Positions 33,811 to 40,324 of a stretch of 64,000 nt of DNA are shown in pieces. The stretch covers positions 62,001 to 126,000 of the forward strand of contig NZ_SSMQ01000009.1 in assembly GCF_005144585.1 (NCBI RefSeq), in the 5' to 3' direction. This DNA is from Polyangium fumosum. Its GTDB lineage: Bacteria; Myxococcota_A; Polyangia; Polyangiales; Polyangiaceae. The stretch's first letter is position 1; every line of letters begins with the position of its first letter. The notes below the pieces were generated by a model. The model saw nothing but the letters and a program-made list of their open reading frames with translations. It ran no database searches and was not told where the DNA came from. The translations under genes and the position numbers were made by a program.

Positions 33811-35064
33811 ATGACCCTCGCCCCCGCCTACGGAGCCGAGAGCCCCATCGCCGAGCTGCTCGAACCCGAAGACCTCCTTCCCCTCGCCGAGCGCAGGCTC
33901 GTGGGCAATTACCGCCAGGCCCCGTTCGTCCTCGATCGAGGCAAGGGCTCCGAGGTCTGGGACACCGAGGGGCGCCGTTACCTCGACTTCTGCGCCGGCG
34001 TCGCGGTCTGCTCGCTCGGCCACGCGCACCCGCGCCTCGTCGCCGCGATCGCCGAGCAGGCCGCGCGGCTGATGCACGTCTCGAACTACTTCTACAACGC
34101 CGAGAACGCGCGCCTCGCCGACGAGCTTTGCAAGAGGAGCGGCATGGACCGCGCCTTCTTCTGCAACTCGGGCGCCGAGGCGAACGAGGCGATGCTCAAG
34201 CTCGCGCGTCGTTGGTTCTTCACGAAAGGCGAGCCCGATCGCTACCGCATCATCGCCTTCGACAACGCCTTCCACGGCCGCACGATGGGCGCCGTCGCGC
34301 TCACCGGGACGCCGAAATACCGCGAAGGGTTCGGCCCGCCGCTCACCGGCGTGACGCACGTGCCCTACGGGGATCTCGACGCCGTGAAGGCCGCCATGGG
34401 CCCGGACGTCGCGGCGCTCTTCGTCGAGCCCGTGCAGGGCGAAGGCGGCGTGATCCCGCCCCCGAAAGGCTTCCTCCCCGGCCTGCGCAGCCTCTGCGAC
34501 GAGCACGGCGCGCTGCTCTGCCTCGACGAAGTGCAGACCGGCGTCGGCCGCACGGGCGCCTTCCTCGGCGCGCAACACGACGGCGTCGAGGGCGACGCGG
34601 TCGCGCTCGCCAAGGGCCTCGGCGGCGGGTTCCCAATCGGCGCGCTCCTCATCAAAGAGCGCCTGAACGGCGTGCTTTCACCGGGCACGCACGGCTCGAC
34701 GTTCGGCGGAAACCCGCTCGCGTCGCGGGCCGCGCGCACCGTGCTCGCCGTCCTCGACGAGGAGAAGCTCATCGAAGGCGCCGTCACGAAGGGCCAGCGC
34801 CTCGCCGAGGGCCTCGCGGCGCTCGTGAAGGAGCACCCCACGCTCTGCGTCGGACAACGCGGCCGCGGCCTCTTGCAAGGCCTCACGCTCGCGCAAGGCG
34901 TCGACACGCGCGCCGTCCTCGGCCGCGCCCGCGCCCAGGGCCTGCTCCTCACGGTCGCCGGCGCGAGCACGCTCCGCTATACGCCTCCGCTCGTCGTGCG
35001 CGAGGCCGAGATCGACGAAGCCCTCACCATCACGAGCCGTGCGCTCCTGGAGATGAAGCCGTGA
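33811..35064 (+). CDS. argD: acetylornithine aminotransferase
   Basis: 417 residues, PLP class III aminotransferase that converts N-acetylglutamate semialdehyde to N-acetylornithine in arginine synthesis. Signatures: GSEVWDTEGRRYLDFCAGVAV, FFCNSGAEANEAMLKLAR, AFHGRTMGAVALTG, EPVQGEGGVIP, LLCLDEVQTGVGRTG and AKGLGGGFPIGALL with the PLP lysine. The ATG at 33811 was chosen because the ~50-codon upstream extension is low-complexity shadow sequence overlapping the divergent grpE promoter. Its stop overlaps the start of argF, so the two are one operon. Confidence 0.93.
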   Translation: MTLAPAYGAESPIAELLEPEDLLPLAERRLVGNYRQAPFVLDRGKGSEVWDTEGRRYLDFCAGVAVCSLGHAHPRLVAAIAEQAARLMHVSNYFYNAENARLADELCKRSGMDRAFFCNSGAEANEAMLKLARRWFFTKGEPDRYRIIAFDNAFHGRTMGAVALTGTPKYREGFGPPLTGVTHVPYGDLDAVKAAMGPDVAALFVEPVQGEGGVIPPPKGFLPGLRSLCDEHGALLCLDEVQTGVGRTGAFLGAQHDGVEGDAVALAKGLGGGFPIGALLIKERLNGVLSPGTHGSTFGGNPLASRAARTVLAVLDEEKLIEGAVTKGQRLAEGLAALVKEHPTLCVGQRGRGLLQGLTLAQGVDTRAVLGRARAQGLLLTVAGASTLRYTPPLVVREAEIDEALTITSRALLEMKP

Positions 35065-36023
35065 AGCGTGATCTGTTGCGACTTGCAGACCTCGGGGACG
35101 GCGGCATCGTCGACATCCTGGATCGCTCGGCCTTTTATGCCCGCGTGCGAGGCAAGGCCGACCACCCGCGGCCGCTCGCCGGCCACGCCATCGCTCTCCT
35201 CTTCGACAAGCCCTCGACCCGCACGCGGCTCTCGCTCGAAGTCGCGACCGTCGAGCTCGGCGGCCACCCGATCATCGTCACGCCCGACTCCACCCAGATG
35301 AGCCGCGGCGAGCCCACCGAGGACACCGCGCGCGTGCTCGGTCGTATGGTCTCTGCCGTCACGTACCGCACGAACACCACGGCGCGCTTCGAGGCCATGG
35401 CCCGCGCTTGCCGCGCGCCCGTGCTGAACGCGCTCACCGACGACGCGCACCCGATGCAGGTCCTCGCCGATCTGCACACGACGCGCGAAGCACGCGGTCG
35501 GCTCGACGGCCTGCGCATCTGCTGGGTCGGCGACGCGAGCAACGTGGCCCGCTCGTGGATCGAGGCCGCGGGCTTGCTCAAGCTCGACATGACGCTCGCC
35601 ACGCCGCCCGCCTTCGCTCCGCCCTTGCCCGAGGTCGACGAGGCGCGCGCCCGCGGCGCTCGCATCACCGTCACGACCGACGCGCGCGAGGCCGCGAAGG
35701 ATGCCGACGTCCTGCTCACGGACGTGTGGGTCAGCATGGGGCAGGAGGCCGAGCGCGACTACCGCATCAGCGCGCTTTCGCCGTATCGGATCACGCAGGA
35801 GCTCGTCTCGCTCGCCTCGCGCGAGGTCGTGGTGCTGCACTGCCTGCCCGCGCATCGCGGCGAGGAGATCGACGCCGACGTGCTCGAAGGCCCGCGGAGC
35901 TTCGTGTGGGACGCCGTCGAGTCGCGGCTGCACACGAGCAAGGCGCTGCTCGAATGGGCCGCGCTCGGGCCCGGCTTCGGCCCGCCGCCGTTCGCTGTCG
36001 GCCGCGGCGGCGCGGCAGGCTGA
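35061..36023 (+). CDS. argF: ornithine carbamoyltransferase
   Basis: 320 residues, starting at a GTG that overlaps the argD stop (GTGA), a translational-coupling arrangement. The enzyme joins carbamoyl phosphate and ornithine to citrulline. Carbamoyl phosphate loop FDKPSTRTR, DDAHPMQ, WVGDASNVARSW and HCLPAHRGEEI are intact. The ornithine loop region reads DVWVSMGQEAE. The open frame extends far upstream within argD, but similarity begins only at this GTG. It is followed 9 bp later by the P-type ATPase homologue. Confidence 0.93.
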   Translation: MKRDLLRLADLGDGGIVDILDRSAFYARVRGKADHPRPLAGHAIALLFDKPSTRTRLSLEVATVELGGHPIIVTPDSTQMSRGEPTEDTARVLGRMVSAVTYRTNTTARFEAMARACRAPVLNALTDDAHPMQVLADLHTTREARGRLDGLRICWVGDASNVARSWIEAAGLLKLDMTLATPPAFAPPLPEVDEARARGARITVTTDAREAAKDADVLLTDVWVSMGQEAERDYRISALSPYRITQELVSLASREVVVLHCLPAHRGEEIDADVLEGPRSFVWDAVESRLHTSKALLEWAALGPGFGPPPFAVGRGGAAG

Positions 36024-36032
36024 GGCTCGGCG

Positions 36033-38381
36033 TTGCGAGCACTCGGACCCGTTGCCGATCCCGTGCCGTGCTCGGGGTGCGGCAAGCTGCTCGATCCGCT
36101 GCGCGCCGGTCACGTCGCGATCTTCGACAGCAAGTTTCACTTCTTCTGCGATCGTCACGCCTGCCGCGCGTGTTTCCTCGGTGAGCCCCCCGGCGAAGCC
36201 GAGACCACGCGCCCCGCGCGGGTCCCGCTCTCCCTCTTCGCGCCCCGCCGATCCGGCGCCGAGCCCGAGCCCTCGCGCAGCAGCCTCGACGCGCCCATCG
36301 TCCCTTTTCACGCACCCGCGTCGCGCGACGCTGCGCTCCCCGAGCCGCCCGCTCCCTTCGACGATCGGACCCTCGTCGAGCCCATCGCGCACGCCATCCT
36401 CACCGAGGAGCCGTCCCGCCTCGATGTGCCCGAGCCGCGCGACATCGGCGCGCTCCTGCTCGTCATCGCCACGATCGCCGGCACGCTCGCCGTCGCGCTC
36501 GGCCTCGCCGGCGATGCGGCCCTCGTCATCGGCGCCCGCATCGTGCTCGCGTCCGTCGGCGCCGGCATGCTCGTCGGACGCGCAGCCACGACCCCACGCG
36601 AGCCCTCCGATCCGCACCCCGCGCCGATCCTCGCGCCCTCGATCCTCTCGCTCGTCCTTGCCATCGGCGCCGCGCTCCGCGCTGTTCCTTCGCTCGGCGC
36701 CGAGGCGGCTTCGCTTGCGGGCATCATCGTCACCGCGACGGCCGTCGGCGCCTGGCTGCTCGAAGGCGCGCGGCACGCCTCTCTCGCCGAACGTGCCTTC
36801 GTCGCGCAGTCGCTCGCCGTCCCTGGCAGGCGCGCGCCCGACGACGGCTCGCCCGGCGAGATCGCGAAGAACAAAGTCTTCGACCTCTGCCCCGGCGAGC
36901 AGGTCCTCGTCGAGCCGGGCGAGGTCGTCCCCGTCGATCTCGTCGTCGTCTCGGGTGAGGTCTTCGTCCTGCCCTGGCTCGGCGCGACCACGCCCGTGCG
37001 CAGGCGCGCGGGCGAGCCTGTCGTCGCGGGCGCGAAGGTCGTGCGCGGCCGGCTCCGCGGCACCTGCACGTTCGCCGGCAACGACCGCGCGTTCGCGCGT
37101 GTCCTCATCGATCCACGCCGCCGCGCCGACGCCCTCGCGCCCATCGCGCGCGCCTCGCGTGCGCTCGCCGAACGCTGGTCGCTCGCCGCGCTCGTGACCG
37201 GCGCGCTCTCGGCCTTCATCGCCGGCGGCCGTACCTATGTCGAGATCGCGATGACCGCGGTCGCGTCCCACGCCGCGCTCGCGACCACGCTCATCGCGGG
37301 CGTCGCCGGCGTGCACGTCGCGCGCGGCATCTTGCACGCGCAGCGCCGCGGCATCGCCTACAAGAGCGAAGGCGCGTGGGACCGCGCGGCGCGCGTCAAC
37401 GTCGCCGTCTTCTGCGCGCGCGGCACGCTCCTCCTCGGCGAACCCGAGCTCGCGGAGCTCGAAGCCCCGGGCGGCAAACTCGAACCGCTCGACGTCCTCT
37501 CGCTCGCGGCCGGCGCCGAGCGCGGCGAAGAGCACCCGATCGCCACGGCGATCGTGCGTGCTGCCGTGACCCGATCGGTGCGCCCCGACGGCGTGCGCAA
37601 CGCGCATCATGTCCCCGGCCTCGGCGTCACGGCCGTCACGAGCTCGGGCGAAGACCTCTGCGTCGGAAGCCGCGCGCTCCTCCTCGCGAACCGCATCTCC
37701 ATCGCCGCGGCCGAGCAACGCATCGCCGAACTCGAAGCCCTCGGCCGCACGGTCGTCCTCGTCGCGGTCGGCGCGCGCCTCGTCGGCATCCTCGGCTTGC
37801 AGGACGGCCTGCGCCCCGGCGCGCGTGCCGCGGTGCAGCACCTGCTCGACGCGCAGATCGAACCCGTGATCATGTCGGGTGACGCGCGGGAGACGTGCGA
37901 GGCCATCGGCCACTCGCTCGACGTCGACCACATCCGCCCCGAGGTCTTGCCGAACGAACGTGGGGCCGAGGTTCGCAGGCTCATCGACGCGGGCATGTCC
38001 GTCGCGGTCCTCGGTCATCCGGGCGTCGACGAGGGGGCGCTTGGCGCGGCGGACGTCGCGGTCGCGCTCGGCGCGGCTGGCTCCTCGCCGGGTGATCTTT
38101 CCGTCGCGCTGGCCTCGGACGACGTACGCGACGCGGCGCTCGCGCTCGCCATCGCGCACCGCGCGCGCCTCGAAGCACGCGTGGGGCTCGCGATTGCCGT
38201 CCTACCTGCGCTTGTCGGGGCGATCGCGGTGGCGTTCGGCGTGCTTCCGCCGGCCTACGCGCCGCTTGCCTCCCTGCTCGGAGGGGCGATGGCGGTTTTG
38301 CACGTGCGAGCGCTCGATCGCGTGCGAGAGTCTGGACCGACGCGAGGACACACGTGGGAAAACGGCCCAAGCGACCCTTGA
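36033..38381 (+). CDS. P1B-type ATPase homologue lacking catalytic motifs (pseudoenzyme)
   Basis: 782 residues, TTG start at 36033 (a later GTG is possible). An N-terminal Cys cluster (Cys13, 16, 39, 44, 47; CSGCGKLLD and HFFCDRHACRACF) resembles a zinc-binding TRASH-like module. Several membrane segments follow (~138-180, 203-245, 385-430), then a HAD-like cytoplasmic region with the N-domain HP motif (EEHPIATAIV, ~499-508). The phosphorylation motif DKTGT is replaced by CARGT (Cys461), the TM metal motif CPC by SHAA (412-415), and the hinge GDGVNDAPAL by GHPGVDEGAL (661-670). The protein therefore cannot be a standard pump. It overlaps the Fur-family gene by 28 bp. Role unknown; a metal sensor or regulator is possible. 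Confidence 0.8.
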   Translation: MRALGPVADPVPCSGCGKLLDPLRAGHVAIFDSKFHFFCDRHACRACFLGEPPGEAETTRPARVPLSLFAPRRSGAEPEPSRSSLDAPIVPFHAPASRDAALPEPPAPFDDRTLVEPIAHAILTEEPSRLDVPEPRDIGALLLVIATIAGTLAVALGLAGDAALVIGARIVLASVGAGMLVGRAATTPREPSDPHPAPILAPSILSLVLAIGAALRAVPSLGAEAASLAGIIVTATAVGAWLLEGARHASLAERAFVAQSLAVPGRRAPDDGSPGEIAKNKVFDLCPGEQVLVEPGEVVPVDLVVVSGEVFVLPWLGATTPVRRRAGEPVVAGAKVVRGRLRGTCTFAGNDRAFARVLIDPRRRADALAPIARASRALAERWSLAALVTGALSAFIAGGRTYVEIAMTAVASHAALATTLIAGVAGVHVARGILHAQRRGIAYKSEGAWDRAARVNVAVFCARGTLLLGEPELAELEAPGGKLEPLDVLSLAAGAERGEEHPIATAIVRAAVTRSVRPDGVRNAHHVPGLGVTAVTSSGEDLCVGSRALLLANRISIAAAEQRIAELEALGRTVVLVAVGARLVGILGLQDGLRPGARAAVQHLLDAQIEPVIMSGDARETCEAIGHSLDVDHIRPEVLPNERGAEVRRLIDAGMSVAVLGHPGVDEGALGAADVAVALGAAGSSPGDLSVALASDDVRDAALALAIAHRARLEARVGLAIAVLPALVGAIAVAFGVLPPAYAPLASLLGGAMAVLHVRALDRVRESGPTRGHTWENGPSDP

Positions 38382-38902
38382 CGCACGGAAACCTGGACGG
38401 GATAAATGACGCCATGGTCGCGAGCGTGAGGGAGGAAGCCGTGACCCTGGACCGGGCCGCCGTGGATCGCTTGCGGGCTCGACTCCAGGCGTACATGGCC
38501 AAAAAGGGCCTGCGCTCGACGGCGCAGCGGCGGCTCATCGTCGACACGTTCTTCGAGGGTGCGTCGCACATGACCATCGAAGACCTGCTCACCGAAGTCC
38601 GCGTGCACGACAAAGGCATCGGCTACGCGACCGTCTATCGCACGCTCAAGCTCCTCGCCGAGTGCGGCGTGGCCTCCGAGCGGCGCTTCGGCGACGGCCT
38701 GAGCCGCTACGAGCTCGCCGACGACGCGAAGGCGCACCACGACCACCTGATCTGCATCTCGTGCGGCACGATCGTCGAGTTCGAGGAGCCGCGCATCGAG
38801 ACGCTCCAGGACGAGGTCGCGCGTCGGTACGGCTTCCAGGTCACCTCGCACAAGCACGAGATGTACGGCACCTGCGCCGACTGTCAGAAGAAGGTGTCTT
38901 GA
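38354..38902 (+). CDS. Fur-family metalloregulator
   Basis: 182 residues from a GTG at 38354 that has GAGG six bases upstream; the ATG at 38414 gives a shorter N-terminus. Winged-helix domain includes LRSTAQRRLIVDTFF and IGYATVYRTLKLLAECGV (recognition helix). The C-terminal domain has HHDHLICISCG and two CxxC pairs (CISC 134-137; CADC 174-177), the structural zinc site of Fur/Zur/PerR proteins. The metal sensed cannot be told from sequence alone. Its start lies inside the 3' end of the P-type ATPase homologue, so the two are coupled. A hairpin follows the stop. Confidence 0.9.
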   Translation: MGKRPKRPLTHGNLDGINDAMVASVREEAVTLDRAAVDRLRARLQAYMAKKGLRSTAQRRLIVDTFFEGASHMTIEDLLTEVRVHDKGIGYATVYRTLKLLAECGVASERRFGDGLSRYELADDAKAHHDHLICISCGTIVEFEEPRIETLQDEVARRYGFQVTSHKHEMYGTCADCQKKVS

Positions 38903-38959: not shown

Positions 38960-40036
38960 TTACTCGCCGACCTGCGCGACGTAGCTGACGCGCGCGATCG
39001 GATCGTAGAGCGGGTTCAGCACCTGCACCGGCGGCGCCACGAGGCCTGCGTACTGCGTGTTGTCGAGCACGACGTAGTAGAGCCCCGGCGCGAGGTTGAA
39101 CTTCCGTGTCTGCGCCGGCCCTGGCGCGAGCGGCGCGCCGCCGAGCACCGGCCCCGGCGCGACCCCGAGCGGCTGCCCCGTCTGGTAGCCCTCGCGCCAC
39201 GGATCCCCGACCATCTTGCTGACGATCATCACGTCGAGCGTCGGCCCTTGCACGCTCATCGTCAGGTAGAGCGCTTGCCCCGAGCCGACCTCGAAGGGGC
39301 CGAGGAAGTCGCGCGCGTTGCCGTGGACGTCGACGGTCTCGTTCGCGAACGTGAAGCGCTCGTCGTCTTGCACCTTGAACGGCTTGATCGGCTTGTTCGG
39401 CGGCGTGAGGATCCCGAGCGCGAACTCGTTGCCGCGGTCCTCGTTCGCCACGACGGTGAAGCCGCGCGTGAGCTCGCCCGTCATCACCTGGTTGCCGAAG
39501 AAGTTCGTCAGCGTGCCGAAGGGTGGGATGTTCGAGGCGATGTTGAACGCCGCGTTCTCGATGTACCCGACGCGGAAGTCCGGCCCCGAGATGATGCGGT
39601 TCAGCCGCCCCCACACGTAGATGTCTTCGTCGGCGATGGCGAAGTCCGGCCGCAGCTCGATCGTCGTCGACGCCGAGAACCCGACGCGCTTGGCTGGGTT
39701 CATGTAGCCGTAGCCCGTCCCCGAGAAGCTCACCGCCACGGTCTGACGCGCGTCATCGACGGTGTAGTTGCACGTCATCGGGAAGAAGCGGCCGATCGCG
39801 GGCGAAGCCGAGTCGGTCTTCAACGACACGCCGAGCTTGAGCATCTCCGGGCAGATCCGACTCGCCCCGAAGTTCGAGAAGAGCCACCAGCGGAGCTGCG
39901 GGTTCGCGTTCACCACGGTGCCGGCGCAAGGGCAGCCGGCCACGGCGAAGGAGAGCGCGAGCACGAGCAGGACCAAGAACGCGCCCGCCGGTCGGGCGGA
40001 CGACTTGCGACGGGATCGCAGCACGCGGATTACCAT
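38960..40036 (-). CDS. exported lipoprotein of unknown function
   Basis: 358 residues from ATG 40036. The leader has a basic N-terminus (RVLRSRRKSSARPAG), a hydrophobic core (FLVLLVLALSFAV) and lipobox AVAGC (Cys35). The open frame upstream is non-coding. The mature part contains aromatic-rich strands (LRWWLFSNFGASRICPEMLK, DEDIYVWGRLNRI) and ends in a Pro/Val-rich region with a YYVVLDN motif. The family was not recognised; it looks like a periplasmic beta-rich protein. It is convergent with the Fur-family gene and divergent from hrcA, with 288 bp between starts. Confidence 0.7.
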   Translation of the reverse strand: MVIRVLRSRRKSSARPAGAFLVLLVLALSFAVAGCPCAGTVVNANPQLRWWLFSNFGASRICPEMLKLGVSLKTDSASPAIGRFFPMTCNYTVDDARQTVAVSFSGTGYGYMNPAKRVGFSASTTIELRPDFAIADEDIYVWGRLNRIISGPDFRVGYIENAAFNIASNIPPFGTLTNFFGNQVMTGELTRGFTVVANEDRGNEFALGILTPPNKPIKPFKVQDDERFTFANETVDVHGNARDFLGPFEVGSGQALYLTMSVQGPTLDVMIVSKMVGDPWREGYQTGQPLGVAPGPVLGGAPLAPGPAQTRKFNLAPGLYYVVLDNTQYAGLVAPPVQVLNPLYDPIARVSYVAQVGE

Positions 40037-40324
40037 AGCGACAGAGCGGGCGAGCGTGTCCTGGAACCTGCAGGAAGCCGGGATCCAGGGCGCGCTCCGT
40101 TGAAGGTGGAGGAAGGCGAGAGAAGACGTTTCTTGGACGATCCGGAAGGCACCCTCCCTAAAAACAGGGCACGAATCCGGCACTTCGGAGTCATCTGGAG
40201 AATTTGCCCGGGATTCGTCGGTCGGATTTGACGCCCCCATCCAACAGGCCTACAAAAAGCGAAGCAAGCTAGCACAGGGGAGGAAAACGACGGCCCCGGG
40301 TGACTCGTAGGGACGGATGCGATC

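Follow-up and report, generated by a model that had tools for sequence, protein, structure and literature searches.

The protein encoded behind argF in the 64,000-nucleotide stretch of Polyangium fumosum DNA analyzed here (the window, from a genome of 12.98 Mb) is a pseudo-P1B-ATPase of an old family that is conserved in the class of myxobacteria to which Polyangium belongs. Kinases and other enzyme groups have well-known pseudo-enzymes, but the phosphorylation that is lost in this family is the one from which the P-type ATPases take their name. That this is a conserved pseudo-ATPase, as suggested in the original prediction, is well supported by the absence of the catalytic aspartate from all 127 aligned homologues, by the grouping of the pseudo-ATPases in a single branch of the tree and by dN/dS values far below 1, and the pseudo-enzyme status is firm. 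The features of the gene and of its neighbors are listed in Table 1.

Table 1. Positions in the window of the pseudo-P1B-ATPase gene, its sequence motifs and the adjacent genes.
Feature	Position	Strand	Description	Basis
argD, acetylornithine aminotransferase	33811..35064	+	Upstream of the pseudo-ATPase gene	
argF, ornithine carbamoyltransferase	35061..36023	+	Ends 9 nt before the pseudo-ATPase gene	
GAGG	36022-36025	+	Overlaps the argF stop codon; 7 nt 5' of the pseudo-ATPase TTG	
Pseudo-P1B-ATPase gene	36033..38381	+	Intact, complete ORF; 782 aa; TTG start (inferred)	
TRASH-like domain	36066..36170	+	Residues 12-46; Cys13, Cys16, Cys39, Cys44 and D-P-L-R-A signature	
Actuator loop, TGE site	36978..36986	+	Residues 316-318; Ala at the Glu318 position	Alignment
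M4, site of the CPC metal motif	37281..37289	+	Residues 417-419, Ala-Thr-Thr	Alignment
Phosphorylation loop	37413..37427	+	Cys461-Thr465; CARGT replaces DKTGT	Alignment
N domain	37446..37769	+	Residues 472-579; zero amino-acid changes compared with three Polyangium species	
N-domain HP motif	37533..37538	+	His501-Pro502	Alignment
N-domain GxG loop	37617..37625	+	Gly529-Gly531	Alignment
N-domain G-x-R loop	37665..37673	+	Gly545 and Arg547; both invariant in 127/127 homologues	Alignment
Hinge	38013..38030	+	GHPGVD replaces GDGVND; His at the Asp662 position, Asp666 kept	Alignment
fur, Fur/PerR-family regulator	38414..38902	+	Downstream; probable ATG at 38414, earlier GTG at 38354	

The P1B-ATPase fold of the protein is confirmed by Pfam matches to E1-E2_ATPase (47 bits) and HAD hydrolase (49 bits) and by the match of residues 218-748 to the NCBIfam heavy-metal P-type model TIGR01525, which at 205.7 bits stays below the 346-bit cut-off of that model. 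A 1060-aa ORF on the minus strand (34977-38159), antisense to argF and to the pseudo-ATPase gene, is taken as a GC-rich shadow. The replacement of the phosphorylated aspartate by Cys461 is seen in both the ORF and the alignment; the alignment also bears out the predicted change of GDGVNDAPAL into GHPGVDEGAL, and the HP motif of the N domain (EEHPIATAIV) is present. The membrane CPC motif is absent, as had been claimed, but the assignment of SHAA to its place does not hold, because the alignment puts CPC on Ala417-Thr418-Thr419 and SHAA lies a few residues upstream, at 412-415. The loss of the TGE motif and the replacement of the P-domain lysine by Arg643 are further losses, beyond those noticed originally.

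These losses are shared by the homologues. The alignment contains 13 canonical pumps and 127 homologues drawn from as many genomes, of which 85 belong to the window's family and 42 to other families of the order; L077 and L153, for which no ORF was recovered at that step, are omitted from it, and seven repeat loci (L092-L098) have been dropped. Position 461 is Cys in 92 homologues, Ser in 15, Leu in 10, Ala in five, other residues in five and Asp in none, and L077, recovered later, likewise lacks the aspartate. Lys is found at position 462 in none of the 127. The first aspartate of GDG (position 662) is never Asp, being His in 54 and Arg in 50, and the last aspartate of the hinge, Asp666, is kept in 126. 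At position 643 there is Arg in 115 homologues and Lys in one, and at the position of Glu318, which is Glu in 13/13 canonical pumps, the four commonest residues are Ala (96), Ser (14), Gly (9) and Asp (3). All 13 canonical pumps have Asp, Lys, Asp and Lys at positions 461, 462, 662 and 643, respectively, which is a check of the alignment and not a frequency, since these proteins were classed as canonical after DKTGT had been seen. In the set of 63 named loci, which overlaps the aligned genomes and is not independent of them, Asp461 also occurs in none; the CPC positions examined in this set have Cys at 419 in no locus and at 417 in two. A 64th named locus, L242, an actinobacterial record with 31% identity, was dropped.

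The residues that replace the aspartate at position 461 (Cys, Ser, Leu, Ala, Val, Asn, Met and Phe) are so varied that they do not fit with a new nucleophile, and Cys461 in this role is rejected as a family rule, Cys being found in only 92/127. A new metal site formed by Cys461 and His662 is also rejected, because His662 occurs together with Ser461, and Arg662 with Cys461, so that there is no strict pair. This variation bears on the idea of a pump whose chemistry has changed without loss of ATP turnover, of the kind described for ERMA/TMEM94. According to the part of the source available (PMC13322241), this eukaryotic P-type ATPase has the P-type fold with altered DKTGT, TGES and GDGVND motifs (DKQGI and GSSANL being found) and transports Mg, so that transport can be supported by motifs other than DKTGT and TGES. 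However, in the same part of that source ERMA keeps the catalytic aspartate, and its D427N variant abolishes transport, whereas this aspartate is missing in 127/127 of the bacterial homologues. An altered but active pump is consequently very improbable here.

Among relatives from named organisms, the nearest are proteins of Polyangium species (96-97% identity). Some match at E <= 1e-3 is found in 95 of the 98 genomes of the window's family, the weak ones including canonical pumps, and the other three have no match to the protein at this threshold. In the order, 123/183 genomes match at E <= 1e-60. In the phylum sample of 377 genomes, 70 match at 1e-40, and the 11 matches listed from outside the order all had DKTGT when fetched. 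No match at E <= 1e-40 was found in plasmid records. In a tree of 102 rows, calculated with a quick method without a mixture model and having some long branches, the 84 pseudo-ATPases form one branch (stem, 0.68) with an SH-aLRT support of 100, from which we infer that the motif losses are older than the order. When a profile of the N-terminal finger was used as the query, very divergent members were identified in family f17 of the class, outside the order (L243 and L244), and also inside the order, namely in f10, f11 and the genus g58 (L258, L247, L259, L246 and L248); this finger profile also matched two real pumps weakly (L256 and L260). All seven divergent members are without DKTGT and keep the G-x-R of the N domain. 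L243 and L244 are extremely degenerate pseudo-P1B proteins of 681-682 aa with a TRASH-like finger, in which LARRS replaces DKTGT. Their occurrence outside the order extends the age of the family.

Sequencing error is excluded as the cause of the motif loss, in agreement with the original prediction, since the complete genomes of Sorangium cellulosum So ce26, So0157-2 and So ceGT47 carry CARGT and the complete genome of Minicystis rosea carries AARGT. It could also be thought that the gene is a decaying pseudogene, as the motifs are lost and at least three interrupted copies exist: G043 (G043:C283:12250-14350, two frames), L021, which is the same as L185 (same contig) and whose frame opens only from residue 287, and L241, whose frame stops early. 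These copies are from metagenome-assembled or highly fragmented genomes, in which the interruption may be decay or assembly error. Other short copies sit at contig ends, and at most loci there is a long single open frame. Against decay stand these long open frames, the single branch of the tree and dN/dS values of 0.075-0.22 in two genera, by which decay is refuted for Polyangium and Sorangium; as a general explanation it is hardly credible.

These values were obtained from pairwise comparisons by the Nei-Gojobori method. Compared with three Polyangium species, dN/dS of the pseudo-ATPase gene is 0.075, 0.097 and 0.083, which is lower than for seven of eight neighboring genes in the same species (ArgD, 0.12-0.19; ArgF, 0.16-0.30; DnaK, 0.11-0.18; GrpE, 0.17-0.31; Fur, 0.13-0.20; the lipoprotein, 0.17-0.24; Rlu, 0.14-0.20), only HrcA (0.036-0.072) being lower. 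For residues 441-470 and 471-590, dN is 0 in all three comparisons, and in the last membrane part dN/dS is likewise very low (0.03-0.09). Three Sorangium pairs give 0.22, 0.20 and 0.21 for the whole gene. In these pairs the membrane parts have values of 0.033-0.077 (residues 138-261), 0.20-0.36 (370-438) and 0.10-0.27 (698-767), the N domain 0.050-0.137, the second part of the P domain 0.067-0.158, residues 441-470 0.16-0.48, the A domain 0.34-0.43 and the linker 0.41-0.63, so that the membrane part 138-261 is as low as or below the N domain. The comparison of the window's gene with Sorangium gives a dN/dS of 0.35, a value for which dS was probably estimated too low, the codons being so rich in GC. 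The pairwise dN/dS values show purifying selection in which the N domain is not singled out.

The model of the protein was calculated with AlphaFold from 38 sequences (pLDDT 85.2, pTM 0.76); a model from the single sequence reached a pLDDT of only 37 and has been left unused. After the finger (residues 11-49) and a low-confidence linker (54-128), helices are predicted at 138-159, 163-186, 196-215, 219-261, 370-396, 402-416/419-438, 698-734 and 742-767. In this model the architecture of a pump is kept, with eight membrane-length helices, a broken M4 helix and the A, N and P domains. The best full-length structural match is the E1 structure of LpCopA (7r0g), with a Z score of 24.4, 618 aligned residues, an rmsd of 7.0 and a TM score, by query length, of 0.54. 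For the P and N domains, nucleotide-bound AfCopA (3a1c, 3a1d and 3a1e) is matched with Z scores of 23.6-23.8 and an rmsd of 3.4-3.5 over 264-266 residues.

By column entropy, which because of the unequal depth of the sets is compared only as a ranking inside each set, the N and P domains are conserved as in pumps and the membrane helices are not; conservation has been shifted from the latter to the former. In the 13 pumps, the mean entropy is lowest in M1-M6 (0.92-1.39 bits) and in the P domain, and it is high (1.70) in the N domain. In the pseudo-ATPases, the values for M1-M6 are 1.86-2.37 bits in the window's family and 1.66-2.35 in the other families, those for the N domain 1.58 and 1.67, and those for the second part of the P domain 1.17 and 1.44 bits, respectively; in the other families M5 (1.66) equals the N domain (1.67). 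Both groups of pseudo-ATPases retain Arg699, Asp700 and Arg712, where M5 begins, and in the column comparison no other polar residue is conserved in both. These data can be compared with what would be seen for an ATP-independent channel or carrier that uses the membrane domain of the old pump for a metal or another solute. The eight-helix plan with the broken M4 helix in the model, the charged residues at the start of M5 and the purifying selection on the membrane parts within genera would agree with such a function. Nevertheless, the membrane helices vary across the order, which is the opposite of real pumps, and neither the CPC motif nor the M5/M6 residues that pumps conserve are kept, with no polar residue common to both groups beyond the start of M5, which makes a channel or carrier rather improbable.

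The nucleotide pocket of the N domain is, judged from the aligned residues, largely retained. Among the 127 homologues, E496 is kept in 100, H501 in 83, P502 in 113, G529 in 122, G531 in 124 and both G545 and R547 in 127; the HP, GxG and G-x-R motifs are all present in the window's protein. The equivalent residues in the numbering of ATP7B are E1064, H1069, G1099, G1101, G1149 and R1151. The position of His501, which is an ATP contact in pumps, has lost its histidine in 44/127. R547 is Arg in 5/13 pumps, and R522 (124/127) and E568 (126/127), near-fixed in the pseudo-ATPases, are mixed in the 13 pumps. It may be that the glycines of the N domain are kept for folding alone.

The cysteine-rich N-terminus noted originally is confirmed as a TRASH-like Cys4 domain; metal sensing, also proposed originally, is suggested only by this domain, whose Pfam matches are weak. 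Among 30 of these fingers, TRASH_HVO_1752_C is matched by 17 (best 8.3e-5) and zf-FCS by eight (best 6.5e-4), and the window's own finger has no match to the TRASH, YHS or zf-FCS families of Pfam. The pattern CxxC-x(n)-C-x(3-4)-C is found in all 30 rows of the finger alignment, which were chosen from 34 extracted domains, one of which is without the last Cys, and the Arg and Ala of the DPLRA signature are invariant across the 30 rows. In the 63 named loci, Cys13 is found in 48, Cys16 in 49, Cys39 in 50 and Cys44 in 50, the rest being gaps (6-13) or other residues (2-7). The four-Cys order (CxxC...C...C) of this short N-terminal domain is that of the TRASH, zf-FCS and YHS fingers, from which it differs by its own DPLRA signature and by its partial, weak Pfam matches. 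A TRASH-like DPxRA finger (DTVRA in L253) is also present in ORFs of the same class outside the order (L249, L250, L251, L253 and L255), which have no match to the pseudo-ATPase profile; four of them (L249, L250, L251 and L255) have a membrane segment and apparent HEAT repeats. The finger seems to be a module shared by two kinds of protein.

The gene order in the window is argD, argF, pseudo-ATPase and fur. Depending on the start of fur, this gene overlaps the pseudo-ATPase gene by 28 bp (GTG) or follows it after a gap of 32 nt (ATG 38414). Neighbors were counted from queries with named genes, because GC-rich shadow ORFs pollute the lists of ORF clusters. Upstream sequence of 1.6 kb or more is available for 56 named loci; argD lies on the same strand within 2.6 kb upstream in 53 of them and argF in 18, and in 55 of the 59 named loci with a finger match one of these genes is upstream. 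In these 55 loci the distance from the argD or argF stop to the first Cys codon of the TRASH-like domain is 18-252 nt (median 47) and is within 150 nt in 52. From this short spacing, argD/argF and the pseudo-ATPase gene are probably co-transcribed. Among the loci from other families of the order, 38 have enough sequence downstream; 22 of these have argH after the pseudo-ATPase gene and 20 have lysA. Both f5 loci have fur, and in two f12 loci (L130 and L138) argH and lysA are upstream on the opposite strand. None of the queried neighbor genes was found at the f3 loci, at the other four of the six f12 loci or at L147. The company of arginine genes thus occurs in two arrangements, but not everywhere, and the arginine link may be only historical. 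Fur is ruled out as an obligate partner, as only 24 of the 56 named loci whose downstream sequence is long enough have fur after the pseudo-ATPase gene on the same strand. Between fur and hrcA, the window also encodes a probable lipoprotein of 426 aa (38960-40240, minus strand), which has a counterpart in Sorangium and no NCBIfam match at 1e-10.

The retained nucleotide pocket and the link with arginine genes, both absent from the original prediction, bear on the mechanism. We consider the chances about even that the protein is a membrane regulator or scaffold without pumping activity, which would bind metal and nucleotide and would be made together with the arginine enzymes; a former pump has probably been turned into a sensor or scaffold. 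According to the chemistry of P-type ATPases, without the phosphorylated aspartate no aspartyl-phosphate would be formed, and hence there would be no pumping by the usual cycle. The cytosolic head would still bind ATP or another nucleotide without turnover, the TRASH domain would bind a metal, and metal and nucleotide together would set the conformation of the membrane-bound protein. Its position behind argD/argF, and before argH elsewhere, suggests that it would be made together with the arginine enzymes. The partner, which is the weakest step of this mechanism, may be an arginine enzyme or, where present, the adjacent Fur-type regulator. A more specific proposal, to be taken as tentative, is that the P-type fold has once been made into a membrane receptor, in the ancestor of the order or earlier. 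In this receptor the TRASH domain would read a metal, the N domain would read a nucleotide or small ligand via the nearly invariant Arg522, Arg547 and Glu568, and the state of the head would be passed on to arginine metabolism or a neighboring regulator. It is also conceivable, if unlikely, that the protein is a membrane scaffold or anchor for ArgD, ArgF or ArgH, in which any binding of nucleotide or metal is structural only. The tight linkage with argD/argF in the window's family and the downstream argH and lysA in the other families would agree with such an anchor, yet an adjoining arginine gene on the same strand is missing at the f3 loci and at most f12 loci, and linkage alone indicates co-expression at most.

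Compared with known systems, the regulator or scaffold proposed here has the same fold, eight-helix plan and A, P and N domains as the P1B pumps (CopA, ATP7B and ZntA; TIGR01525, PF00122), the closest solved structures being LpCopA in the E1 state, the P and N domains of AfCopA, and ATP7B. Unlike these pumps, it is without DKTGT, TGE, GDGxND, the P-domain Lys and CPC, its membrane helices are variable across the order and its TIGR01525 score is below the cut-off. In the apicomplexan guanylate cyclase PfGC-beta, the available part of the source (PMC6592433) describes a cyclase-fused P4-ATPase domain that has lost most signatures; that protein is eukaryotic, of the P4 type and fused, whereas the pseudo-ATPase is bacterial, of the P1B type and stand-alone, with a TRASH-like domain. 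No report of a stand-alone bacterial pseudo-P1B family was found in searches of an open-access library, and the family is regarded here as a pseudo-enzyme branch of the P1B ATPases outside the working pumps. The P-type ATPase families have reportedly been classified by Saier and colleagues (Chan et al. 2010). A name based on the fold, such as 'heavy metal translocating P-type ATPase', would mislead for this protein. With its fold kept under selection and the chemistry gone, this bacterial family is a natural experiment, in which the role of the N and P domains as ligand-binding modules is separated from their role in an engine.

The same genome has ten other E1-E2_ATPase matches above the cut-off; of those that were read, most have DKTGT, TGE and GDGxND. 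Outside the window, a second degenerate P-type ATPase, read by eye, is encoded in this genome (L091, G000:C22:203500-212500); it keeps DKTGT, has SDGQED for GDGxND and ASPAA at the CPC site, and is without TGE. A further, CcoI/FixI-like ATPase (L090, G000:C7:6000-15000) has NGES in place of the usual TGES.
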